Shown: positions 46,988 to 57,620 of the stretch, in pieces | Numbering within the stretch: the stretch's first letter is position 1 | How the letters are laid out: each line of letters starts with the position of its first letter | Assembly (NCBI GenBank): GCA_002711995.1 | Contig: PASN01000018.1 | Location: 124,001 to 188,000, forward strand | DNA from: Halobacteriovoraceae bacterium | GTDB lineage: Bacteria; Bdellovibrionota; Bacteriovoracia; Bacteriovoracales; Bacteriovoracaceae | Length of the DNA: 64,000 bases | Direction: 5' to 3' | Notes under the pieces: model-generated | Told to the model about the DNA's origin: nothing | The model's input: the letters and a program-made list of their open reading frames with translations, nothing else | Databases searched by the model: none | Program-made: the position numbers and the translations under genes

Positions 46988-47340
46988 ATTTAAATCATCA
47001 AGGTATTTGCAAGAAGTGTCAAGCGCTTGAAAAGAGGAAAAGAAATGAAGACCTGGGGGAAGACTTCGGTTTCGCGCCCCTTCAAAGAAGGTGGGCGCAA
47101 TTAGTAATCACTTTAGGCTTCCCATTTATCAATCGCAATTCCACGATTGTTGGGCATGCTCACTGTGATCAGGGACAGCTCCCGAAAAATACATTGTAGG
47201 GCGAAACTCGTATTATGCTTCATCCCCAGGTCTGTCTTTATTGTACCAGATAATTGGCAAGGTTGTTACAGGGAAAATTGCTTGAACATTGCTTTATCCC
47301 TGTCTTTACAGGCGTTTAGAGTACTTTGTAGCGCTTCGCG

Positions 47341-47369
47341 TTGAATTGGTTGTTGATAACTGATATAAT
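47341..47369 (+). promoter_or_regulatory. Sigma-70-type promoter of the Tad cluster
   Basis: TTGAAT (47341-47346), 17 bases, then a perfect TATAAT (47364-47369). Start would be near 47376, leaving a 75-base leader before the Flp pilin. Confidence 0.65.
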
Positions 47370-47393
47370 TTATAAAAAAGGGAAAATAACCTT

Positions 47394-47421
47394 TAAAGTT
47401 TTTAAGGGCTCCACCCGAAAA
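47394..47421 (+). promoter_or_regulatory. Sigma-28 (FliA)-type promoter of the Tad cluster
   Basis: TAAA (47394-47397, continuing as TAAAGTTT), 16 bases, then CCCGAAAA (47414-47421), six of eight to the GCCGATAA box. The start near 47428 would give a short leader with GAGGAG before the pilin ATG. Spacing equals that of the promoter before the YD-repeat gene. Confidence 0.6.
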
Positions 47422-47451
47422 GTAATTGTATCCAATAGAGAGGAGCTGACT

Positions 47452-47634
47452 ATGAAAAATAAAATTGTGGAATTTCTCAAAGACGAGAGTGGACAAACTT
47501 CAACTGAATACATTCTTCTTGTAGCGGTTGTTGCTGTTATTATTCTAAAGTTTAAAGATACTTTACAAGAAAAGCTTGAAGGCCTTATTGGTAGTGTCTT
47601 TACAAGAGCTGATCAAGAACTTGGAGAGCTTTAA
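47452..47634 (+). CDS. flp: Flp-type pilin
   Basis: This is a 60-residue Flp pilin, the major subunit of the Tad pilus. A short leader (MKNKIVEFLKDESG) is followed by QTSTEYILLVAVVAVIILKF, with Glu at position 5 after the Gly cleavage site and a Tyr beside it as in all Flp pilins. The charged C-terminal part is short. GAGGAG lies nine bases upstream of the ATG at 47452; a longer frame to 47341 covers the promoters and is not used. It is first in the cluster and has its own promoters, which would allow high expression. Confidence 0.93.
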   Translation: MKNKIVEFLKDESGQTSTEYILLVAVVAVIILKFKDTLQEKLEGLIGSVFTRADQELGEL

Positions 47635-47702
47635 GTATAAAGAGTTTCAGGCAAATTTTTCTCTATTGGGTAAATACACTCTAGATCTTCTATAATTTAA
47701 GC

Positions 47703-47927
47703 ATGAAAAAGCTAAATAAATTCAGCCAAGGTGGTCAGGCCTTGGTTGAATATCTTTTCGCGCTTATGTTCCTTGTTCTCATTTCAACAAAGTTATTAGG
47801 CTCATTCACCGACTTCATGAGGGATTCCTTTGGAAACCTGGCCCATGTTATGACTATGAATCTCATGACAGGCACTTGCGAGACTCAGTGCTTTTGGAAT
47901 GGATACAGAAACGGATACAGACAGTGA
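47703..47927 (+). CDS. Flp/TadE-like prepilin
   Basis: This 74-residue protein starts MKKLNKFSQGG, then QALVEYLFALMFLVLIS, with Glu5 and Tyr6 after the Gly site. A pair of cysteines (CETQC) near the end is unlike the Flp pilin. The ATG has no ribosome-binding site. A candidate promoter (TTGGGT, 19 bases, TATAAT at 47691-47696) would place the transcript start at or next to the ATG, so it could be leaderless. Its stop overlaps the prepilin peptidase start (GTGA). It may be a minor pilin. Confidence 0.82.
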   Translation: MKKLNKFSQGGQALVEYLFALMFLVLISTKLLGSFTDFMRDSFGNLAHVMTMNLMTGTCETQCFWNGYRNGYRQ

Positions 47928-48427
47928 TTCCATGGCCTATATACATTTTCATCTTGTTAGAGCTTATTGTTGTTTCTTACGGGGATATTAAAACCAATAA
48001 AATACCAAATCTTTGGTCATTCTTGAACCTTGGAGCTTTTGCTGTATTGCTACTGGTTGCTCCGCAGTACTACTCTTTGGAGCCTCAAGCGTTTATGTAT
48101 TCTGGCGCATTTTTGTTTGTGGGCTTTATTTTGTTTCTTCTAAATATTATGGGAGGAGGGGATTCAAAGTTTTTGTTTACCTTCTTTTTATTGGTGCCAA
48201 TAGGCCTGCAGGATAGAGTTTTCTATTACCTTCTACTTTCCACAGTTCTTATTGGAACATTTCTATTGATTCAGAATACCTTAGGTAACTGGAACACTCT
48301 GGTTAATGCATTGAAAATCAAAGATATAAAGACGGTAAAAAGTTGCTTCGGTACAAAATTTTCTTATGCCCCTGTTATACTTATTGCATGGCTATGGATG
48401 GGATTAAGCATAAGAGCAACATTTTAG
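47924..48427 (+). CDS. tadV: Prepilin peptidase TadV/CpaA (A24 family)
   Basis: This 167-residue membrane protease cleaves the leader peptides of Flp and TadE-like prepilins. The two catalytic aspartates lie in YGDIKTNKIPN and GGGDSKF, in the usual A24 order. About six hydrophobic segments cover the rest; there is no methylase domain, as in other TadV/CpaA. I use the GTG at 47924, overlapping the previous stop by four bases; a TTG at 47876 gives a longer, cytoplasmic N-terminus. The length is normal for TadV. Confidence 0.9.
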   Translation: MIPWPIYIFILLELIVVSYGDIKTNKIPNLWSFLNLGAFAVLLLVAPQYYSLEPQAFMYSGAFLFVGFILFLLNIMGGGDSKFLFTFFLLVPIGLQDRVFYYLLLSTVLIGTFLLIQNTLGNWNTLVNALKIKDIKTVKSCFGTKFSYAPVILIAWLWMGLSIRATF

Positions 48428-48708
48428 ATCAACAGGGACAAACTTTAGTGGAGTATATTCTACTTCTTGCCGTTGTTGTCTCTCTTACGACATTTGTTTT
48501 TAAGTCCGACTACTGGCAATCCTACTTTGGCCCTGATGGAAAATTCGACTCAGTTTTTAGAGCAAGAATAGAGTATTCTTATAGGCACGCCTTGGGAGGA
48601 AAAGACTTCTATTCACAACCAAACTATGGAGACCGAAATCACGACTCGTATTACGGCAATGGCGCCACGAGATTCTTTAGACCAAGAGAGGCGTATCCTG
48701 CAAACTGA
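48388..48708 (+). CDS. TadE/Flp-like prepilin (minor pilin)
   Basis: The frame is open from 48343, but the cleavable leader is MAMDGIKHKSNILDQQG with QTLVEYILLLAVVV after it, so I choose the ATG at 48388 (106 residues). Glu5 and Tyr6 are conserved. The C-terminal 60 residues are Tyr- and Arg-rich (FDSVFRARIEYSYRHAL, then RFFRPREAYPAN) and unlike a Flp pilin. It overlaps tadV and probably the next gene. No ribosome-binding site is clear, so it is likely translated by coupling. Confidence 0.75.
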   Translation: MAMDGIKHKSNILDQQGQTLVEYILLLAVVVSLTTFVFKSDYWQSYFGPDGKFDSVFRARIEYSYRHALGGKDFYSQPNYGDRNHDSYYGNGATRFFRPREAYPAN

Positions 48709-49207
48709 TCAGAAGGGACAGGCCTCTATTGAGTTTATTTTAACCTTTGCCTTTGGCATAGGATTGTCATTATTGTTTGTGAGCTTGGCCATAAATATGA
48801 CCCGCGGATACCTTGTTCATTATGCAAACTTTATGGCCTCAAGAACCTTTTTGTCCTATGACAGCGGTAGTACCAACACCGTGGACGCAAGTATCGCCTC
48901 GGCGGCCAATAGAGCAAGAGACACATTTAATCGATACCCTTTGGCATCATTTGATATCGAAGCGATATTCAAAGTTAATGTGCCAATCGAAAACGCCCAG
49001 GCCATGTCTGGCTCCACGGCCATGTTTAAAGAAAGAACCACCCCGCTAAACCTGGTTGGGGGGACTAATGAAGCAAATTTTCTGTCAGAGTCGTTTCTTG
49101 GCAAAGAACCTGTGCGGCTGCAGTGCATAAGAAGCACCTGTGGTGCAATGGGGCTTGGTGGCTGCGGCTCAGTTATGGATGTTACGGTGTTTGACAATGG
49201 CTGCTAA
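48659..49207 (+). CDS. TadE-like pseudopilin
   Basis: This is a TadE-like protein of 182 residues from the ATG at 48659 (or 193 from 48626). The prepilin signal QTDQKG-QASIEFIL has Glu5 and Phe6, followed by a long hydrophobic helix and an extracytoplasmic domain with four or more cysteines (CIRSTCGAM, GGCGS, NGC). Its start lies inside the previous gene. TadE and TadF are minor pseudopilins needed for pilus assembly. Which of the overlapping genes is TadE and which is TadF cannot be fixed from the sequence. Confidence 0.78.
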   Translation: MAPRDSLDQERRILQTDQKGQASIEFILTFAFGIGLSLLFVSLAINMTRGYLVHYANFMASRTFLSYDSGSTNTVDASIASAANRARDTFNRYPLASFDIEAIFKVNVPIENAQAMSGSTAMFKERTTPLNLVGGTNEANFLSESFLGKEPVRLQCIRSTCGAMGLGGCGSVMDVTVFDNGC

Positions 49208-49718
49208 GAAAAAAATATTGAACCAAAAAGGCCAGGCCTTAATGGAATTCATCTTATTTCTGCCGTTTTTACTGATGATGTATTCGGTTACCATGAGTAT
49301 TGCAAATGCGATAAACGCATCCATTAACCAGCAAAAAGTTACGAGAGCATACTTTTACTATCGTCTTCAGAACAACTCTTCGGCTCCAGTTGCCTACCGC
49401 GGGCAGGGACCACCTCCATTCAATCGCTTTGGACAGCATGTGAACCTTTGGGGTGAAAGACAAATAGGGGATGTACCTCTTGCCGCTTGTTTTAAACTCA
49501 ACATACCTCTGGGAAATCGTGAGGAGGACTCATGTGAGGAGTCCTATGAATCGGCCACAACTCAGTACATTAGAGTTGGCACTGTTTACGGCATCTGCGG
49601 TGCTACATATGTGAGAGAGGGAACTAATTTAGTCAGACTTCCAAATATCTCTTTAACTGGATCACAGATATCCTCTCCTGCTGAAGTTATTGATCAGGCC
49701 AGCTGCATAGCAATGTAA
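49197..49718 (+). CDS. TadE/TadF-like pseudopilin
   Basis: This 173-residue protein starts at the ATG at 49197, inside the end of the preceding gene (11-base overlap). The leader MAAKKKILNQKG is followed by QALMEFILFLPFLLMMY, again with Glu5-Phe6. The exported domain has six cysteines (CFKLN, DSCEE, YGICG and a late C). It closes the run of four prepilin-like genes. A hairpin (ATGGAG, 8 bases, CTCCAT, 49722-49741) follows, without a T run, before cpaB. Confidence 0.78.
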   Translation: MAAKKKILNQKGQALMEFILFLPFLLMMYSVTMSIANAINASINQQKVTRAYFYYRLQNNSSAPVAYRGQGPPPFNRFGQHVNLWGERQIGDVPLAACFKLNIPLGNREEDSCEESYESATTQYIRVGTVYGICGATYVREGTNLVRLPNISLTGSQISSPAEVIDQASCIAM

Positions 49719-49805
49719 AGAATGGAGTTTTCTTCCTCCATATCGTTAAGCCCTTGAAAATTATAAAATAGAAGAGAAACCAACGTTTGTTGAAAAGGAA
49801 AGTTT

Positions 49806-50615
49806 ATGAATAGTAGAGCTTTCACGCTTAGTCTGTTGATCGCTGGTATAGCCATGTTTATGGTTTACTCTTATATTGACGGGGTTGAGTCTGGCTTTAA
49901 AGAACAGTACGGAAGTGAAGTTCCGGTTCTGGTAGCAAAGACTGATATCAAAGAGCTTGAACTTATCGATGATAGAAAAGTTACGCTTATCAATGTTCCT
50001 CAAAAATTTAAAATGCCTGGATCTTTCAATAGCCCGGAAGAGGTCTACAACACCATAGCGGCAGTTCCTATTAAAGAGGGGGAGCAGATCACAAAGCCTA
50101 GAGTCACATGGCCTGGAGAGAGGACTGGACTCTCAAGACAGATTAGTGTGGGAAAAAGAGGTTTTAGTGTTCAGGTGGATGAGCAACAGGCCGTAAGTCG
50201 TCTCCTCAAGCCGGGTGATAGAGTGGATGTCCTGACCATGGTTGACTATGCTGGCGGAAGAAAAGAAATGTTGAAAGTTAAAACGGTTCTTCAGGATGTT
50301 TATGTTCTTGCCACGGGAAAATATGTCACTAAAGAAATTCCCATGATCGGAAACAAGATTGATAAAGAAGTTAAGGCCATGAACCTTAACACATATACAA
50401 ACTTTAATACGGTCACGTTGGAGCTTACTCCATATGAAGTGCAGAAACTTATCTTTTTAATAACTGCTGGAAATGGAATTTTCCTTTCTCTTAGAAACAA
50501 TGACGATAAAGCGATAGAAAGAATTTCTGGCACAAGACTCTTTGATGTTCTAGGTGAAGACGCTGCTGAGGCAAAGGCATACTTCTCAGAACAGGCCGAT
50601 AGAAGAAGACAGTAA
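49806..50615 (+). CDS. cpaB: Flp pilus assembly protein CpaB/RcpC
   Basis: This 269-residue protein has one N-terminal membrane segment (about 6-24) and an exported part with the SAF/CpaB pattern: VPVLVAKTDIKELELID, an AAVPIKEGEQITKPRV stretch, then GFSVQVDEQQAVSRLLKPGDRVDVLTM. CpaB works in the periplasm with the secretin CpaC. AAAGGAAAG precedes the ATG. Its last codons lie just before the cpaC start. Confidence 0.92.
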   Translation: MNSRAFTLSLLIAGIAMFMVYSYIDGVESGFKEQYGSEVPVLVAKTDIKELELIDDRKVTLINVPQKFKMPGSFNSPEEVYNTIAAVPIKEGEQITKPRVTWPGERTGLSRQISVGKRGFSVQVDEQQAVSRLLKPGDRVDVLTMVDYAGGRKEMLKVKTVLQDVYVLATGKYVTKEIPMIGNKIDKEVKAMNLNTYTNFNTVTLELTPYEVQKLIFLITAGNGIFLSLRNNDDKAIERISGTRLFDVLGEDAAEAKAYFSEQADRRRQ

Positions 50616-50616
50616 T

Positions 50617-52125
50617 ATGAAGTTAATCGCCGCAATAGTTTTATTATATTCCTCTTTATCATTCGCCCAAGTGGCGGAAATAAAAGAAACTCCACTCGAG
50701 GTGGCGATTGGGATCGATGAGATCATAAAGCTAGACTACAAATTCAACACGAAAGTATCTGTCGGAGACCAGAGCAAGCTTCGTTTAATTCTGTCTCCCG
50801 CAAAACAAGAAATTACTTTTAGAGGAGTAAAGCCCGGCAAAACCTCTGTCACGATAAGAGACGGCTCCGGGGACATTCGAGACAAGTATATTGTGACAGT
50901 AACCTCTGATGGGAAGTCAAACGTTGTTAGGGAACTTAGAGACCTTTTAGGTGATGTAGAGGGCATAGAGATTGGAATTAAAGGTGGAAAGGTTGTTCTG
51001 GAAGGAGCGATTGTTGTGCCTGGAGACATTGGGAGAATTGCAACGGTTCTGGCCGCTTACCCCGATGTTCTTCCATTGATTGAGATGTCCAATCAGACTC
51101 AAAGAATTATCGCTAGAAAAATGCAGGAAGAAATTAATCGAAACAACATGAAAGATGTTCGAGTGAGAGTCGTAAACAAAGACTACTGGCTTGAGGGTGT
51201 TGTAAATAGTGCCGCTAAGAAAGATCTTGCAACAGAGATTGCCAAAGGATTAATTCCTGGCACAATTCAAAGTTTAGCCAGAGCTCAGGGGGGAGAGAGA
51301 TTTCGTGAAACTGAAGTTGGAGAGCTTTTAAACTACATTGCTGTAAATGAAAAAAAAGACCCAGCTCCACCACCAAAGCTGATCAAAGTTACTTCACAAT
51401 TTGTTGAACTCACAAAAGACTATCAGAAGATATTTGCCTTCCAGTGGAACCCTCTAATGAATCAGTCAGGCAGTATTTCTTTTGGAAAAAGCGAGCAAGG
51501 TGGAATTGTTACAAAAAGTGACGGCACTTTGTCTGGCACCATCTCAAATCTTTTTCCAAAGCTAAGTAGCGCCAAATCTGCAGGCTACGCTAGGGTGATT
51601 CAATCCGGGATGGTCGTGACTCAAGAAAATCAAGAAGCGACTATAAATAAAACAAGAGAAATTCCTATTCAAGTAGGCTCTGGAGAGTTCGCACAGGCGG
51701 ATAAAACAACTTTGACCTACACAATGAAAGTAACCCCTTCCGTTGGAGAGGGGGAGAATGTTTTTTTGAGAGGTCTAAGCGTGACAGTGGCACTTCCAGG
51801 AAGTGACGCCGCAGGTGGACAGCCGACCTCAATCCAAAACTCTATAACGACAAATTTAGTTGTGAAGTCGAAAGAGTCTGCTGCGATTGGTGGGATTGTT
51901 CAAAATTCATCAAGCACAAACTACGATAAGAACCTTCCAAGTGGAGGGACCTCTGGAGTCAGCGGAGAAGAAGAGGGGGCTTCAGTCCTATTCAATCTAT
52001 TGAGAAGTAAGGGATACAACACTTCAAAATCTCAGTTCGTGGTGTTTATTACTCCAGAGCTTGTGCAATCCGCTGCAACTGGAACTGAGGAAATTAGAAA
52101 AAAGTTTAGGAAAAGGCAAAGATAA
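50617..52125 (+). CDS. cpaC: Tad secretin CpaC/RcpA
   Basis: This 502-residue outer-membrane secretin forms the channel through which the Tad pilus passes. The signal peptide (MKLIAAIVLLYSSLSFA) fixes the ATG at 50617. N-terminal domains (the pilus-assembly beta domain with LSPAKQEITFRGVKPGKTSVTI and BON-like units at about 100-240) lead to the secretin core from about 255, with GGIVQNSSSTNYDK and FVVFITPELV as the last strands. The stop overlaps the next ATG by one base. Confidence 0.93.
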   Translation: MKLIAAIVLLYSSLSFAQVAEIKETPLEVAIGIDEIIKLDYKFNTKVSVGDQSKLRLILSPAKQEITFRGVKPGKTSVTIRDGSGDIRDKYIVTVTSDGKSNVVRELRDLLGDVEGIEIGIKGGKVVLEGAIVVPGDIGRIATVLAAYPDVLPLIEMSNQTQRIIARKMQEEINRNNMKDVRVRVVNKDYWLEGVVNSAAKKDLATEIAKGLIPGTIQSLARAQGGERFRETEVGELLNYIAVNEKKDPAPPPKLIKVTSQFVELTKDYQKIFAFQWNPLMNQSGSISFGKSEQGGIVTKSDGTLSGTISNLFPKLSSAKSAGYARVIQSGMVVTQENQEATINKTREIPIQVGSGEFAQADKTTLTYTMKVTPSVGEGENVFLRGLSVTVALPGSDAAGGQPTSIQNSITTNLVVKSKESAAIGGIVQNSSSTNYDKNLPSGGTSGVSGEEEGASVLFNLLRSKGYNTSKSQFVVFITPELVQSAATGTEEIRKKFRKRQR

Positions 52126-54227
52126 TGGCCGGACACATAATCAGCATTGTTGGAGGAAAAGGCGGCGTGGGCAAGTCCCAGTTTGCCGCGAACCTTGCCT
52201 TCGCCTTCGCTTCTGAAAATAGGCAAAAGGCCCTATTGTTGGACTTTGATCAAAAGGCGTGTGGTGATCAAGGCCTAATTACCGGAATTAAAAGTAAAAA
52301 GACAGTAAAAGAGCTAAGTGAATTCAGCGGGGCAATAGATCCCAAATCAATAAATATGTTTATTGGCATGCATAAGGCCGGCGTTCACTATATAGGAATG
52401 CCAAGTGATAGAACTGCCGCAGACCAAGTTAATCCTGAAGGACTTGGGAAATTTCTTAAAGCGGTAACAAGTCTCTACGCGGTTACAATAATTGATGTGG
52501 GAAGTGAGCTAAATGAACTTGCTCTGAAGGCCTTGGAGTACTCAACGATGATTAACATCGTAGTGACACCTGATCTCTTAGCGGCAAATCAGTCCAAGAG
52601 ACTCTACTCCGAACTCGCCACACTCCTTTTTCCAAAAGAGATGATCCAAATCGTAATGAACCAATATCAGAAGGGACATCCAGTTGGACCTGATGTTGTG
52701 GGCAGACAGATTGGCAAGCCTGTGTTTGGAGTTGTTCCAAGGGATGATCAAACTTGTGCAAGAGCGTTAAGCTCGTCCACTCCTTTAATGACCATTGCTA
52801 AAAATTCGCCATTTGCTCAGGGTGTTGTTGATATTGTTAGAAAGCTAAAGCAGAAAAATGTTTTAAAGTCCCTTGAGAGGCTCAAAAAACCCGAAGGCAC
52901 CGCAGCTTCTAAAAGTAGTGCTAGCGCCACAACCTCACGCTCAGGAAAAGATCCTTGGACTGAATTAAAATCCAGAATTCATAAGTCTCTCGTTGAAGAG
53001 ATGGATATGAAAAAACAAGATGACAGTGATCCAAAAGCACAGATTATTTTGCGCGAAAAAACCAAAAAATTAGTAGTTGAACTTCTTGGCAAAGAGGACA
53101 CAAAAACTCTTTTAAAAGGTCGAGAAGATATGAATAGAATCGTAAAAGAGATTCTGGACGAGGCCTTGGGATTAGGTCCACTCGAGGATATGCTAGCGGA
53201 TAAATCGATCTCAGAAATTATGGTTGTAGGGCCTAAGAAGATCTACTACGAGCAGGCCGGAAAAAATAAAAGAAGTGAGATTACTTTCACCAATGATCGC
53301 CAGGTTCTCAATGTAATTGAAAGAATTGTGGCCCCCCTGGGCAGAAGAATTGACGAGAAAACACCATACGTTGATGCAAGACTTGCAGATGGTTCTCGAG
53401 TGCACGCCATAATTCCTCCATGTGCCCTAGATGGTGGAACAATTACAATTAGAAAGTTTCCTGAGAACAGACTTACGTACAAGGATTTGATTCAGTTTGG
53501 TTCAATGACTCAAAACATGGCCGACTTTTTAAGAATCTCGGTTGAGGCACATCGAAACATGGTTGTCTCTGGTGGTACGGGCTCTGGTAAGACAACTCTG
53601 ATCAACATGCTTGGTGGTTTTATTCCGGCCAATGAAAGAATCATCACATGTGAAGATTCGGCGGAATTGGACTTCCCACAGGATCACGTGGTGCGACTTG
53701 AAACCAAACCACCGTCACTTGAGGGAGAGGGTGCCGTTGATATTAGATGTCTTGTGAAGCAAACGCTTAGAATGAAGCCAGATAGAATTGTGGTTGGAGA
53801 GTGTAGAGGGGGAGAGACTCTAGATATGCTTCAGGCAATGAATACTGGGCACGACGGAAGTTTAACCACTGTGCACTCCAACACTCCAAGAGATTGTATG
53901 TCCAGACTGGAAACTCTTGTTCAATATGCAGGTGCGGGCATCTCGCCAAAGGCAATTAAAGAGATGATTGCCTCCGCTGTGCACATGGTGGTTCAACAAT
54001 CCAGGCTGGAAGATGGCTCTCGTAAAATCATGAACATTACTGAAGTGGGTGGTCTGCAAGGTGAGGTAATAACTCTTCAAGATATCTTTGTGTATAAACA
54101 AGAGGGAATGAGTAAACAGGGTAAAATCATAGGCAAGTTCATGGCAACCGGCTTTATCCCCAAGTTTATCGAGTCTCTAGAGAAGAAGGGTTATAAAGTG
54201 CCAAGAGGTCTTTTTAAGAATGATTAA
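52125..54227 (+). CDS. TadZ-TadA fusion: MinD-like localiser and pilus ATPase in one chain
   Basis: This 700-residue protein joins two Tad proteins that are normally separate. Residues 1-255 form a MinD/ParA-type ATPase like TadZ/CpaE, with deviant Walker A GGKGGVGKS (10-18), LLLDFDQKACGD and IIDVGSEL. A linker (about 255-300, Ser/Thr-rich) follows. Residues about 300-700 are TadA/CpaF, the hexameric secretion ATPase: GPLEDMLADKSISEIMV, Walker A GGTGSGKTT (483-491), the Asp box ITCEDSAELDF, Walker B-like RIVVGECRGGET and the His box TGHDGSLTTVHS. It energises Flp polymerisation at the inner membrane. In other Tad systems TadZ places TadA at the pole, and here both are in one chain. It overlaps tadB by eight bases. 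Confidence 0.93.
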   Translation: MAGHIISIVGGKGGVGKSQFAANLAFAFASENRQKALLLDFDQKACGDQGLITGIKSKKTVKELSEFSGAIDPKSINMFIGMHKAGVHYIGMPSDRTAADQVNPEGLGKFLKAVTSLYAVTIIDVGSELNELALKALEYSTMINIVVTPDLLAANQSKRLYSELATLLFPKEMIQIVMNQYQKGHPVGPDVVGRQIGKPVFGVVPRDDQTCARALSSSTPLMTIAKNSPFAQGVVDIVRKLKQKNVLKSLERLKKPEGTAASKSSASATTSRSGKDPWTELKSRIHKSLVEEMDMKKQDDSDPKAQIILREKTKKLVVELLGKEDTKTLLKGREDMNRIVKEILDEALGLGPLEDMLADKSISEIMVVGPKKIYYEQAGKNKRSEITFTNDRQVLNVIERIVAPLGRRIDEKTPYVDARLADGSRVHAIIPPCALDGGTITIRKFPENRLTYKDLIQFGSMTQNMADFLRISVEAHRNMVVSGGTGSGKTTLINMLGGFIPANERIITCEDSAELDFPQDHVVRLETKPPSLEGEGAVDIRCLVKQTLRMKPDRIVVGECRGGETLDMLQAMNTGHDGSLTTVHSNTPRDCMSRLETLVQYAGAGISPKAIKEMIASAVHMVVQQSRLEDGSRKIMNITEVGGLQGEVITLQDIFVYKQEGMSKQGKIIGKFMATGFIPKFIESLEKKGYKVPRGLFKND

Positions 54228-55185
54228 ATGGAAAGCATCACTACTATTATTGTTCTTCGCAGCTAACGCTTTCGCCCAAAAGAGTGCAGGAAGCATTAAC
54301 TTTTTCTCTGATATTTTGGGACGGAAAGGAATTTTGATCGCCGTAGGTTTAATTTTCTTTCTCTACTCTTATAAAAACTCTTTAAAACTTTTTGCTTGGA
54401 TCGAGGACCAAACCTTTGGGACAAGAGATTATATTATGCAAAAGCTAGAGCTTTTACATGTTGAAATAGAATCAAAAAACATCACATACGCACTTCTGTT
54501 TTTATCCTTTGGACTTGGGGTCATTGTGCTGGGGATTTTTGCCCTTATGGGAAAGTTCACCGCCGGTCTTTTTGTTGCATCTGCCGTCTCAATTGTGGGC
54601 TGGAAGTCCCCAAGACCTATAATTGATCACTTAGTGAGCAGAAGAGTAAAGAAGTACGAAGGACAAATGGTCGACGCTTTAAACCTTTTATCCAACGGGT
54701 TGAGAGCAGGACTTTCTGTGCCGCAATCTCTTGGTCTTGTTGTTGATGAGCTTCCCGCGCCAGTTAGCCAGGAATTTAACACTATCTTGCAACAGACCAA
54801 AATCGGTGTTCCTTTAGAGGAGGCATTTGAGAATTTGGTAAAAAGAGTGCCTACACAAGATAATCAAATGTTTGTATCCAGTGTGAATATATTAAGGGAA
54901 ACAGGTGGTAACCTTGCCGAGGTATTTGACACCATCACCCAGGTTATCCGTGAAAGGGTAAGACTGGCACAAAAAATTGACACCTATGTAGCCCAAGGCA
55001 AGTTCCAGGGCTATATCATTTTCTGCATGCCCTTTGCTATGATGGGGATCTTTACAAGCTCCGATCCTGAGGCCATGGATGCTTTGTATGGCACTGTAAT
55101 TGGAAACATCGTTCTGGCAATTGCCGTGGGACTGTCATTTGCAGGCCTTGCGGTAATTCTAAAAATCGTAAAAATCAAGGTTTAG
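54220..55185 (+). CDS. tadB: Tad inner-membrane platform protein TadB
   Basis: This 321-residue protein is a T2SSF-domain platform: four membrane helices, a cytoplasmic domain with YEGQMVDALNLLSNGLRAGLSVPQSL and NILRETGGNLAEVFD, and hydrophobic helices at the C-terminus. TadB normally pairs with TadC, but no second T2SSF gene follows; TadC is either elsewhere or replaced by TadB dimers. A short N-terminal hydrophobic stretch ends in FAQKSAG, like a signal peptide. It is the last gene of the pilus block. Confidence 0.9.
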   Translation: MIKWKASLLLLFFAANAFAQKSAGSINFFSDILGRKGILIAVGLIFFLYSYKNSLKLFAWIEDQTFGTRDYIMQKLELLHVEIESKNITYALLFLSFGLGVIVLGIFALMGKFTAGLFVASAVSIVGWKSPRPIIDHLVSRRVKKYEGQMVDALNLLSNGLRAGLSVPQSLGLVVDELPAPVSQEFNTILQQTKIGVPLEEAFENLVKRVPTQDNQMFVSSVNILRETGGNLAEVFDTITQVIRERVRLAQKIDTYVAQGKFQGYIIFCMPFAMMGIFTSSDPEAMDALYGTVIGNIVLAIAVGLSFAGLAVILKIVKIKV

Positions 55186-55201
55186 CGCGCTAAAATAGTC
55201 T

Positions 55202-55229
55202 TAAAGCTTTTCAATAATCCTGCCGATAA
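55202..55229 (+). promoter_or_regulatory. Sigma-28 (FliA)-type promoter of the YD-repeat gene
   Basis: TAAA (55202-55205), 16 bases, then GCCGATAA (55222-55229), a perfect match to the -10 consensus. The start near 55236 leaves a leader of about 33 bases with AAAGGAAAGGG before the ATG at 55269. The -10 box sits between AATCCT (55216-55221) and AGGATT (55231-55236). The flanking pairs, with CTTTT/AAAAG outside and TTTTT after, also form a weak terminator for the pilus operon. Confidence 0.82.
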
Positions 55230-55268
55230 TAGGATTGAGCAAAAGTTTTTAATGCAAAAGGAAAGGGC

Positions 55269-56906
55269 ATGAGAGGAACAAAAATTTTATTATTTCTTGT
55301 CGCTGGGGCATTGAGTTTATCAAGTTATGCCGGAGTTAATCTGAAGAATGGTAACTTCTATATCTCTTACTCCGACATTGTGGGATTCGACTTAAAAAGA
55401 ACCTATAATTCTAAATCCACATCTGTGGGATGGTACGGATTTGGTTGGGGTACTGTCTATGAGACAAAGCTAGTGCCTTCCGCAGATGGATGTGTGGTTA
55501 TTCACGAATATGGAGCAGGTGGTAAAACAAGATTCTGCCCTAAAAACTCTGTTGACGCCGACGCCGCCGCAAAGAAAATCGTTGAAGTTATGAGAAAGAA
55601 AAATAAACTTCCAGCTTCATCGGTTAAGCCATTGCTTAAAAGACTTAAAAATAATGCAGAGCTTAGACATGCTTATGCTCAAAATTTTAACGTGAAAACA
55701 AAGATCGCCGCTGGATCTGAGCTTTACTCCAATCAACGTGGAATTCAAAAAGTAGTGGTTCAGAAGACTGGCTATAAAAGAATTTCAAACGATGGTAAAG
55801 AAGAGCACTTTGACAAGGCCGGTAATCTGACAAAGGTGAAGACTAAAGGCAATTATACTGTTGAGCTTGTTTACAACAAAAATAAGCTTAAAAGTATTAA
55901 AGACTCCAAAGGAGCTCAGGTTTACTTTGACTGGTATTCCAATGGTAAGAGAATCAAGCACCTTTGGACAACTGGCGAGAAAAAAGCAACGTTTAAGTAC
56001 GACGGAGAAAACCTAGTTTACTCAAAAGATATTCAAGGCAACGAGTATGAGTATCGCTATGATACCAACCACAACATGGTTAGAGTTGTTTATAATCCAA
56101 GTAGAAAGAAAGGTGAGCCTGAAGATTTCATGAAGATGGATTATGAGGATAAAACCTTCTTTGTATCTGAAATCAAAGACAGAAATGGCGATGTAACCAA
56201 GTATAAGTATGGCAGTAACCCTAAGAAACCAAATGACCACTACTGGACTGAGGTTACTAAGACTGGTTTTAACGGGAAGCCTGTTACAAACAAGTACGAA
56301 TATGAAATCAAAACTAAGCCAGATGGCGCAAGATACACTTATAGAATCGCCACTAAGATTAATGGCATCAAAACTGAGACCATCTACTCTGAGTGTTGTG
56401 GACTTCCTCTAAAAATTGCTAGAGGCAAGCACGTAACAAACTTTGAATACAATGATGATGGCCTGTTAACTAAAAAGACATCCACTAAAGGTGACTTCGT
56501 TCAAATTGAATACGATAAGAAGCACAAGAAAATCAAAAAAGTTACCAATGCCAAAGGTTGGACGAAATTTGCTTACAATGATCAAGGAAACCTCGAGAGA
56601 GCGGTTAACTCTGCAGGAAAAGCGGTTCTTTTGATCTATAACAGCAAAGAAAAGATCTCTAAAATGGTGGATAAAGACAAAAAGACTAAAAAGGTTAGAA
56701 CTCTGTCTTTCGAGTACAACGCTCTAGACAAGCCAGAGGTTATAAAAATGGATAAGGTTGGACAGATTCGCGTAACGTACGACAACTACGGCGATATCAA
56801 AAGAGTTGAGTCTAAAGCAGGCCATAAGATGGCAATGCAGGTTACTCAGGCCTTTCAAAACCTTCTGGCCATTGTTAAGCCAGCTGGCGTTAACTTAAAC
56901 ATGTAA
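55269..56906 (+). CDS. Exported YD-repeat (RHS-type) protein, hit-locus Bd0109-like
   Basis: This 545-residue protein has a signal peptide (MRGTKILLFLVAGALSLSSYA), then an RHS N-terminal-like segment (GFDLKRTYNS, WYGFGWGTVYET) and from about residue 170 a series of YD/RHS units. Examples are HFDKAGNLTKVKTKGNYTV, YNDDGLLTKKTSTKG and YNDQGNLERAVNSAGKAV. No toxin domain or RHS core-ending PxxxxDPxG motif is found; it ends in a helix (MAMQVTQAFQNLLAIV). It probably forms a beta shell or surface layer outside the cell. Its place after the Tad cluster and before small secreted peptides matches the Bdellovibrio hit locus, where I recall Bd0109 as the YD-repeat protein that binds Bd0108. A FliA-type promoter precedes it. 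Confidence 0.82.
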   Translation: MRGTKILLFLVAGALSLSSYAGVNLKNGNFYISYSDIVGFDLKRTYNSKSTSVGWYGFGWGTVYETKLVPSADGCVVIHEYGAGGKTRFCPKNSVDADAAAKKIVEVMRKKNKLPASSVKPLLKRLKNNAELRHAYAQNFNVKTKIAAGSELYSNQRGIQKVVVQKTGYKRISNDGKEEHFDKAGNLTKVKTKGNYTVELVYNKNKLKSIKDSKGAQVYFDWYSNGKRIKHLWTTGEKKATFKYDGENLVYSKDIQGNEYEYRYDTNHNMVRVVYNPSRKKGEPEDFMKMDYEDKTFFVSEIKDRNGDVTKYKYGSNPKKPNDHYWTEVTKTGFNGKPVTNKYEYEIKTKPDGARYTYRIATKINGIKTETIYSECCGLPLKIARGKHVTNFEYNDDGLLTKKTSTKGDFVQIEYDKKHKKIKKVTNAKGWTKFAYNDQGNLERAVNSAGKAVLLIYNSKEKISKMVDKDKKTKKVRTLSFEYNALDKPEVIKMDKVGQIRVTYDNYGDIKRVESKAGHKMAMQVTQAFQNLLAIVKPAGVNLNM

Positions 56907-56922
56907 AAACACGAGGTACGAT

Positions 56923-57105
56923 ATGAAAAAACTATTTGTAATTAATCTTTTCCTAGCAATGTTTGCAGTGACTGGTTTTGCCAATGAGGTGGAAACAGAT
57001 CCAGGAGCCGATAAGTGTGCTACTGAAAGAAGTGCTGAGGGTGAAGAGGCTACCGTAGCCGCCGAGAATGAAGAGGCTCAGGGTACGACGGTCAATAAAG
57101 ACTAA
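56923..57105 (+). CDS. Small secreted peptide 1, candidate Hit (Bd0108)-like protein
   Basis: This is a 60-residue protein with a signal peptide (MKKLFVINLFLAMFAVTGFA) and a mature acidic peptide of about 40 residues with one cysteine (DKCATERSAEGEE). It lies 16 bases after the YD-repeat gene and shares its transcript. It is a paralogue of the peptide at 57349: same length, MK-x-LF start and C-x2-(E/D)RSA core. By position and size it is the counterpart of Bd0108, the hit protein whose changes free Bdellovibrio from prey; direct sequence identity to Bd0108 I cannot test. A 10-bp direct repeat lies in the coding sequence. Confidence 0.7.
   Translation: MKKLFVINLFLAMFAVTGFANEVETDPGADKCATERSAEGEEATVAAENEEAQGTTVNKD
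57042..57078 (+). repeat. 10-bp direct repeat inside small secreted peptide 1
   Basis: TGAAGAGGCT occurs at 57042-57051 and again at 57069-57078, starts 27 bases apart. Recombination between the copies would delete 27 bases, that is nine codons in frame, from the peptide gene. Confidence 0.8.
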
Positions 57106-57127
57106 AAACGCTTAAAACCTAAATAAG

Positions 57128-57152
57128 AGCCGCTCATGTAGCGGCTTTTTTT
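57128..57152 (+). terminator. Terminator of the YD-repeat/peptide 1 unit
   Basis: AGCCGCT-CATGT-AGCGGCT followed by a run of seven T. It separates peptide 1 from the promoter of peptide 2. Confidence 0.9.
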
Positions 57153-57297
57153 ATGCCTATATCATCACCCATATTGGTTCGCGCTACAACATCTTCATAT
57201 AATCCCTAAACTTGATCATTTTCTAGTCAGTGTAAATAAAATAAACAATTTATATAAAATTATTAGCGTAAAAACAGTAGTTTAGCGTTTGACCATT

Positions 57298-57314
57298 TTG
57301 GCACGGTATTCGCA
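57298..57314 (+). promoter_or_regulatory. Sigma-54-type promoter of small secreted peptide 2
   Basis: TTGGCACGGTATTCGCA matches the consensus TTGGCAC, five bases, TTGCA with one mismatch; the invariant GG and GC are ten bases apart. The start would be near 57326, 23 bases before the ATG. An enhancer-binding activator would be required. Confidence 0.72.
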
Positions 57315-57348
57315 TTAATAAAGGCAAGAGATTAAACAAGGAGAGAAC

Positions 57349-57531
57349 ATGAAAAACCTATTTTACACATTACTTGCCACTGCATTATTTACTACATCAG
57401 CGCTTGCTGCGGGTGTGGATCACGTAGACACTAATGGTGCAATTTGCGGCGACAGATCTGCAGGTAAAGCAGTTGCAACTGGAGAGGTTGAAGAAGTAAT
57501 TTCAGAAGGTGCTTCTGCAACAGGAAACTAA
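57349..57531 (+). CDS. Small secreted peptide 2, paralogue of peptide 1
   Basis: This 60-residue protein has a signal peptide (MKNLFYTLLATALFTTSALA) and a mature part of about 40 residues with one cysteine (AICGDRSAGKAVAT). It shares with peptide 1 the overall length, N-terminus and C-x2-DRSA core, but not the acidic repeat. AAGGAGAG precedes the ATG. It has its own sigma-54-type promoter and terminator, so it is regulated apart from peptide 1. I infer that a hit-like gene was duplicated and put under different control; function is unknown. Confidence 0.68.
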   Translation: MKNLFYTLLATALFTTSALAAGVDHVDTNGAICGDRSAGKAVATGEVEEVISEGASATGN

Positions 57532-57590
57532 AAAAGAAAATGGTGGCCTTCGGGCCATTATTGATACCCCTTTCCCCATTTTCCCAAAAG

Positions 57591-57620
57591 CCACGCTCTC
57601 CCCGGAGCGTGGTTTTTTTT
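57591..57620 (+). terminator. Terminator after small secreted peptide 2
   Basis: CCACGCTC and GAGCGTGG form a perfect eight-pair stem with a six-base loop, followed by eight T. A second hairpin with a TTCG loop (57538-57561) lies just after the peptide 2 stop, without a T tract. Confidence 0.92.

Follow-up and report, generated by a model that had tools for sequence, protein, structure and literature searches.

A hit-like locus of the Bacteriovoracaceae encodes two small secreted peptides, the second behind a predicted σ54-type promoter

Whether Bdellovibrio lives as an obligate predator or grows freely has for decades been linked to Bd0108, a small secreted peptide that related predators had appeared to lack. 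Do these relatives carry a counterpart, and what accompanies it? We explored this question in a stretch of 64,000 nucleotides from a Halobacteriovoraceae bacterium (assembly GCA_002711995.1, contig PASN01000018.1, positions 124,001 to 188,000 of the forward strand; hereafter the window), in which a Tad pilus cluster is followed by a gene for an exported RHS/YD-repeat protein (the YD protein) and two genes for small secreted peptides. All of these genes lie where a first-pass annotation of the sequence had placed them. The locus shows the arrangement of the hit locus of B. bacteriovorus, namely a Tad cluster, a YD protein of the Bd0109 type and a small secreted peptide on one strand. The second peptide lies behind a predicted σ54-type promoter, B. 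bacteriovorus also has such a peptide, and in most of the family the two peptides of a genome end in matched C-terminal tails. The part of the locus that follows the Tad genes is laid out as follows.

55269..56906, + strand: exported RHS/YD-repeat protein, Bd0109-type (PF05593, E 1.4e-13)
56923..57105, + strand: peptide 1, secreted, one cysteine, in the position of Bd0108, 16 nucleotides 3' of the YD stop codon
57125..57149, + strand: terminator-like hairpin and T run, closing the unit of YD gene and peptide 1 (fold -13.8 kcal/mol, z -3.2)
57231..57247, + strand: degenerate copy of the upstream palindrome (9/14) at a phased distance, not above chance in the window alone
57299..57314, + strand: σ54-type -24/-12 site TGGCACGGTATTCGCA, 11/12 consensus positions
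57349..57531, + strand: peptide 2, secreted, one cysteine
57586..57617, + strand: terminator after peptide 2 (14-pair stem, T tract, z -6.2)

The order of Tad genes, YD gene and tiny secreted peptide is that of bd0119 to bd0108 in B. bacteriovorus, as the first-pass annotation had pointed out. The genome used for this comparison (G154) is probably B. bacteriovorus of the HD100 type, since the C-terminal end of its peptide is the published RRHDDTVSREIKGSSATPGGSEKAGTGRQ, the NCBIfam model hit_Bd0108 scores it at 102 bits and it lies at 97 kb. The published hit locus, bd0108-bd0109 with the flp/Tad operon bd0110-bd0119 (PMC3818213, PMC4267844), runs in the same order and direction as the window, with an exported YD protein 33% identical to that of the window (E 7.7e-73), immediately followed by a small secreted cysteine peptide of disordered appearance. 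The annotation had named a lack of this order among relatives as grounds for giving up its proposal; the arrangement is kept across the phylum, so the proposal withstands that comparison. The YD protein was found in 51 of 59 relatives and in 343 of 369 genomes of the phylum. The named relatives belong to the Bacteriovoracaceae/Halobacteriovoraceae and include Bacteriovorax sp. BSW11_IV (L105) and a Halobacteriovorax marinus isolate (L106); most of the loci compared come from metagenome-assembled genomes, and signal peptides were assigned by a simple rule. A secreted peptide follows the YD gene within 230 nucleotides in 82 of 90 loci, a second one stands behind a σ54-type site in 75, and both are present in 71. 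Since equivalents recur in this way, the window peptides are not chance frames.

The gene order itself is not new, and much of the arrangement is already in print. Synteny of the Tad locus across predators has been published, with Bd0109-bd0113 among their syntenous attack-phase core genes (PMC5430801). Bacteriovorax (Halobacteriovorax) marinus SJ has a Bd0109 homologue, BMS_0182, with two small signal-peptide neighbours (BMS_0182-0184) as in the window, lacking significant homology to Bd0108 and mentioned without promoter, tail or family analysis (PMC4267844). New relative to these reports are the σ54-linked second peptide unit, the phased palindrome upstream of it and the matched C-terminal tails. 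The published accounts of the hit locus leave the second peptide and its promoter unmentioned (PMC3818213, PMC4267844), and open-access literature on Bd0107, σ54 in Bdellovibrio and peptide pheromones gave no earlier description of them. The second secreted peptide of B. bacteriovorus has apparently been overlooked so far.

Reading the loci side by side revealed the element TGGCAY-N6-(T/C)GCW, a σ54 -24/-12 pattern, before the second peptide. We scanned for it with the GG and GC mandatory and 12 positions scored, a score of at least 10 being counted as strong. Across 119 distinct loci (177 kb), the forward strand had 108 strong sites and the reverse strand had 2. In a hold-out set of 60 further loci, gathered later and scanned with identical code, 36 sites were forward and none reverse. 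With a score of at least 9, 119 sites in 95 loci have the start of a small secreted peptide 26-78 nucleotides downstream. Tandem copies of peptide 2 occur in 21 of 90 loci, each copy with a separate site (L021, L024, L047, L053, L128, L129 and others), and 38 of the 40 genomes examined for RpoN have it. The site is clear in the window itself, and the -24 GG, the -12 GC and the exact spacing between them are kept in relatives. Peptide 2 is thus predicted to form its own transcription unit behind a σ54-type promoter. The first-pass annotation had described the peptide as duplicated here; rather than a duplicate particular to this lineage, peptide 2 is a unit apart with a predicted promoter, found in B. 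bacteriovorus too. Sites of this type are also strongly enriched across the genome of the window (76, compared to 6 for the reversed pattern), many before exported proteins and one before a flagellar rod-like protein.

The 200 bp upstream of the σ54-type sites contain a 17-bp palindrome, TGTCTMANNNTKAGACA, which reads TGTCTAAANTTTAGACA in Bacteriovoracaceae and TGTCTCANNNTGAGACA in Bdellovibrionaceae. It matches at 11 or more of 14 positions in 104 of 121 upstream regions, compared to 3 of 121 stretches taken from within the YD gene as controls. In Bacteriovoracaceae its distance to the -24 element clusters near 57, 67, 76, 87 and 97 bp, repeating every ~10 bp (R 0.73, n 83; relatedness not corrected). 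Such phasing would be expected if a protein bound along one side of the helix. The B. bacteriovorus genome holds 50 near-matches, compared to 4 for the reversed pattern. Two copies there, at 106426-106442 and 3233775-3233791 (L316, L354), lie ~98 nucleotides before flp1 and ~223 nucleotides before a fliA-like gene (genes named from sequence), a hint of a global regulator. General control of flp1 by the palindrome was discarded, the copy being present in B. bacteriovorus and not in Bacteriovoracaceae. A search for the activator through genomic sites in the genome of the window was abandoned, as the motif is not enriched there, and PilR, considered from a TGTC half-site, found no confirmation in a literature search.

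The two peptides of a genome resemble each other at their C-terminal ends. In 90 genomes with both peptides, the similarity of the last six residues within a genome was 6.68, compared to -0.38 after permutation (standard deviation 0.49) and +6.4 relative to close relatives. Tails differ between close relatives and agree within one genome, as in DSKERG/GSKERG (L140), GSKVRGQ/GSKVRSQ (L080), VKGTR/VRGTR (L043) and RVVPE/SVVPQ/NVVPQ (L070). The match is confined to positions -1 to -5, falls at -6, resides in codon positions 1 and 2 and is absent after the stop codon; inner stretches, the cysteine core and the leader stay close to the permuted values. It persisted after removal of redundancy (93 genomes, z 14.2), where residue order matters, and in the hold-out (z 5.3 overall, z 4.4 for Bdellovibrionaceae). 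The permutation tests remove relatedness in part, and the close-relative comparison and the hold-out partly address the remainder. Gene conversion or a DNA element as the source of the match was rejected, as codon position 3 and the bases after the stop hardly match, and so was a composition effect, as the match is lost on shuffling the five residues.

When every frame of the 20-kb loci was considered, the tail recurred only in 11 further members of the peptide family (1.3 expected), and it is not shared by the pilins, TadA, the secretin or the YD C-terminus. One genome (L362) has a 258-residue exported protein that ends in SSNTSK, the same tail as its peptides, and the tail code may therefore reach beyond the locus. 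It is unusual for five C-terminal residues to change in step in two otherwise dissimilar proteins, and this points to a reader of the tails.

How do the peptides relate to Bd0108? The first-pass annotation had described two 60-residue peptides with a C-x2-(E/D)RSA core, which holds for peptide 1 (CATERSA), whereas peptide 2 has C-x1-DRSA (CGDRSA). The cores in a sister genome read CAEERVA and CADRSS, which leaves C-x(1-3)-(E/D)-R as the conserved part. An alignment of the two window peptides with each other reaches E 7e-5, but over leader and core. The proposal that they are diverged copies of Bd0108 found no support: BLASTP gave E 14, the NCBIfam model NF053838 (hit_Bd0108, cut-off 40 bits) scored peptide 1 at 15.9 bits (E 0.014) and did not match peptide 2, and family-to-family profiles were weak or nil. 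Peptide 1 has 60 residues instead of 101, a single cysteine instead of CxxC, and no RTVNPGEDPNEA-like stretch; peptide 2 likewise has one cysteine and lacks the CxxC and conserved N-terminal stretch of Bd0108. A single mature cysteine is found in peptide 2 in 118 of 120 cases.

The second peptide of B. bacteriovorus has 66 residues and starts 510 nucleotides after the YD stop codon, ~190 bp downstream of bd0108. Within Bdellovibrionaceae, the motif C-x(n)-(R/M/L)-(L/F)-x-(D/N)-x-T is common to Bd0108 and peptide 2 and exceeds what shuffled controls give (z 8.7 and 13.6; hhalign E 7e-5). The HD100 version of this stretch after the cysteine, RRHDDT, stands at the start of residues 73-86, the segment removed by the common 42-bp host-independence deletion (PMC4267844). 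In the family of the window the sequence link between peptides 1 and 2 is weak, and a link across the two families could not be demonstrated by sequence. We therefore regard the window peptides as equivalents of the B. bacteriovorus pair by position, promoter, cysteine and leader, rather than as proven homologues of Bd0108.

The YD protein contains RHS_repeat (PF05593) and DUF6531 domains. Its AlphaFold2 model, built from 36 sequences, is a strand-rich repeat with a predicted local distance difference test score of 80.5 and a predicted template modelling score of 0.67. The model resembles Rhs cages and teneurins with probability 1.0 and low template modelling (TM) scores (at most 0.43 over the query), so a closed RHS/YD shell is putative. 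The RHS/YD repeats are like those of the Rhs cages of type VI effectors and of TcC proteins, which both profile and model match, whereas the window protein is half their size, lacks a toxin domain and shows no autoproteolysis module. In Bdellovibrio, Bd0108 is disordered and binds Bd0109 weakly through its N-terminal half, leaving the C-terminus free (PMC4267844; binding also in PMC3818213). If this mode of binding holds here, the peptide tail would be free for another partner. A further genome (G041, likely B. exovorus) has two YD proteins, of which one matches strongly and the other weakly, as reported for that species (PMC4267844).

With moderate confidence, and as the most economical reading, we propose that the hit locus takes this form in the Bacteriovoracaceae and serves in the periplasm as a control module for the Tad pilus, with two differently regulated ligands that are read by their tails. 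The Bd0109-type shell protein and the small disordered secreted peptide 1 would be made with the pilus operon, while peptide 2 would be made separately, from the σ54 promoter and upstream activator site, upon the signal of the activator. The genome-specific five-residue tails of both peptides would be read by one common partner, and peptide 2 could therefore replace, reinforce or compete with peptide 1, shifting the pilus or prey-contact signal. The proposal builds on the observed gene order and its conservation, the σ54-type sites, the phased palindrome, the single cysteine and the co-variation of the five-residue tails; from these we infer an active σ54 site, a common reader, action of both peptides on the same complex and an effect on prey dependence here.

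Several observations weigh against this proposal. The promoters are sequence calls only, and most loci come from metagenome-assembled genomes in which a predatory lifestyle is not established. The palindrome is not enriched in the genome of the window (5, compared to 4 in the control), and the window copy is degenerate at 9/14; a sister genome keeps 12/14 in the same place. Profile tests did not link the peptides of the two predator families by sequence. In the hold-out the tail match was not significant in the other families (n 10, z 1.5). The window pair, TVNKD and SATGN, shows no clear match, so tail matching characterises the family rather than the window. No column of the YD protein co-varies with the tails above the null, and the C-terminus of Bd0108 (89-101) is unaffected by Bd0109 in vitro (PMC4267844), which argues that the tail reader is probably not Bd0109.

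It is possible, though we doubt it, that outside Bdellovibrio the locus is a Tad accessory unlinked to prey dependence, bd0108 owing its hit role to a use specific to that lineage. The YD protein is distributed more widely in the phylum than proven predators, and prey-independent growth of mutants is known for B. bacteriovorus only (PMC3818213, PMC4267844); the place of Bd0109-bd0113 in the attack-phase core of predators speaks for a link. A bolder view, offered tentatively, is that the hit locus serves peptide signalling throughout the phylum: several exported one-cysteine peptides of a genome would share a fast-changing C-terminal five-residue code, σ54 and a phased activator site would induce the second peptide, and Bd0108, the known switch of prey dependence, would be one of two ligands, the other overlooked.

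The last four to five residues of a protein are typically read by PDZ domains and tail-specific proteases. The tail could thus protect from, or deliver to, a periplasmic protease or PDZ-type binder common to exported proteins with that tail, the peptides having no signalling role of their own, which the tagged 258-residue protein would suit. Such housekeeping readers are conserved, however, and fast in-step change of the tail in two genes would not be expected of them; moreover, in one genome of 3.3 Mb (L080) the two peptides are the sole frames with their tail. We consider this explanation unlikely.

Less likely still, exported precursors would release the five residues by cleavage, to be perceived as a peptide pheromone particular to the lineage, with the σ54 promoter of peptide 2 closing an autoinduction loop through an NtrC-type activator. 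Secreted precursors of 55-70 residues, tandem copies, an activator-dependent promoter type and similarity limited to exactly the last five residues, differing between close relatives and agreeing within a genome, are in line with this. The Phr and PapR peptides of Bacillus are likewise short exported precursors with an informative C-terminal end that differs by lineage; we claim no homology, and here the setting is the Gram-negative periplasm. Multiple precursors of one pheromone should agree, whereas the tails are similar and seldom identical (33% identity within a genome, 13% permuted). No protease or receptor turned up, receptor and processing not having been specifically tested, and the tagged 258-residue protein fits a general tail reader better. 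An ordinary Rhs toxin-immunity pair, suggested by RHS repeats with small downstream genes, is very improbable, given that alignments show the YD protein ending at a conserved PAGVNLNM without a variable toxin domain, that the small proteins are exported, one-cysteine and tail-tagged, and that Bd0108 is disordered (PMC4267844).

A second secreted peptide beside bd0108, with separate predicted control and, in most of the family, a matched tail, offers a gene, a promoter and a residue-level motif for testing in a genetically tractable predator. Mutations in bd0108 were found in 32% of 44 sequenced host-independent strains, and many isolates carry none (PMC11323537).

The Tad cluster opens with the Flp pilin (47458) and closes with the TadB/C-type gene (55185). 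The first-pass annotation had taken 47341 as a gene start, which is merely the first TTG of the frame. Flp pilin, prepilin peptidase, CpaB, secretin, TadA and TadB/C are all present by Pfam.

47458..47634, + strand: Flp pilin, first Tad gene (PF04964 E 1.1e-6, Flp1_like E 3e-6, both slightly under curated cut-offs; Flp motif DESGQTSTEYILL)
47876..48427, + strand: TadV-type prepilin peptidase, A24 (PF01478, E 1.4e-7)
48626..49718, + strand: two TadE/F/G-like minor pilin genes (48626-49207, 49140-49718), assigned by prepilin-like starts and cluster position, without Pfam match
49806..50615, + strand: CpaB/RcpC (PF16976, E 2.7e-21)
50554..52125, + strand: secretin CpaC/RcpA (PF00263, E 4.6e-18)
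52125..54227, + strand: MinD/TadZ-like domain fused to TadA ATPase (PF00437 E 3.8e-60, PF01656 E 1.9e-14)
54220..55185, + strand: TadB/C-type inner-membrane protein (PF00482, E 6e-20)

Of 50 relatives whose TadA could be read, 35 have the same MinD/TadZ-TadA fusion, as does the B. bacteriovorus genome. No riboswitch or other RNA reached the gathering score near the peptides. The Tad cluster is immediately preceded by a 6S / SsrS RNA encoded on the other strand (window 47046-47235, - strand; Rfam RF00013, 54 bits).

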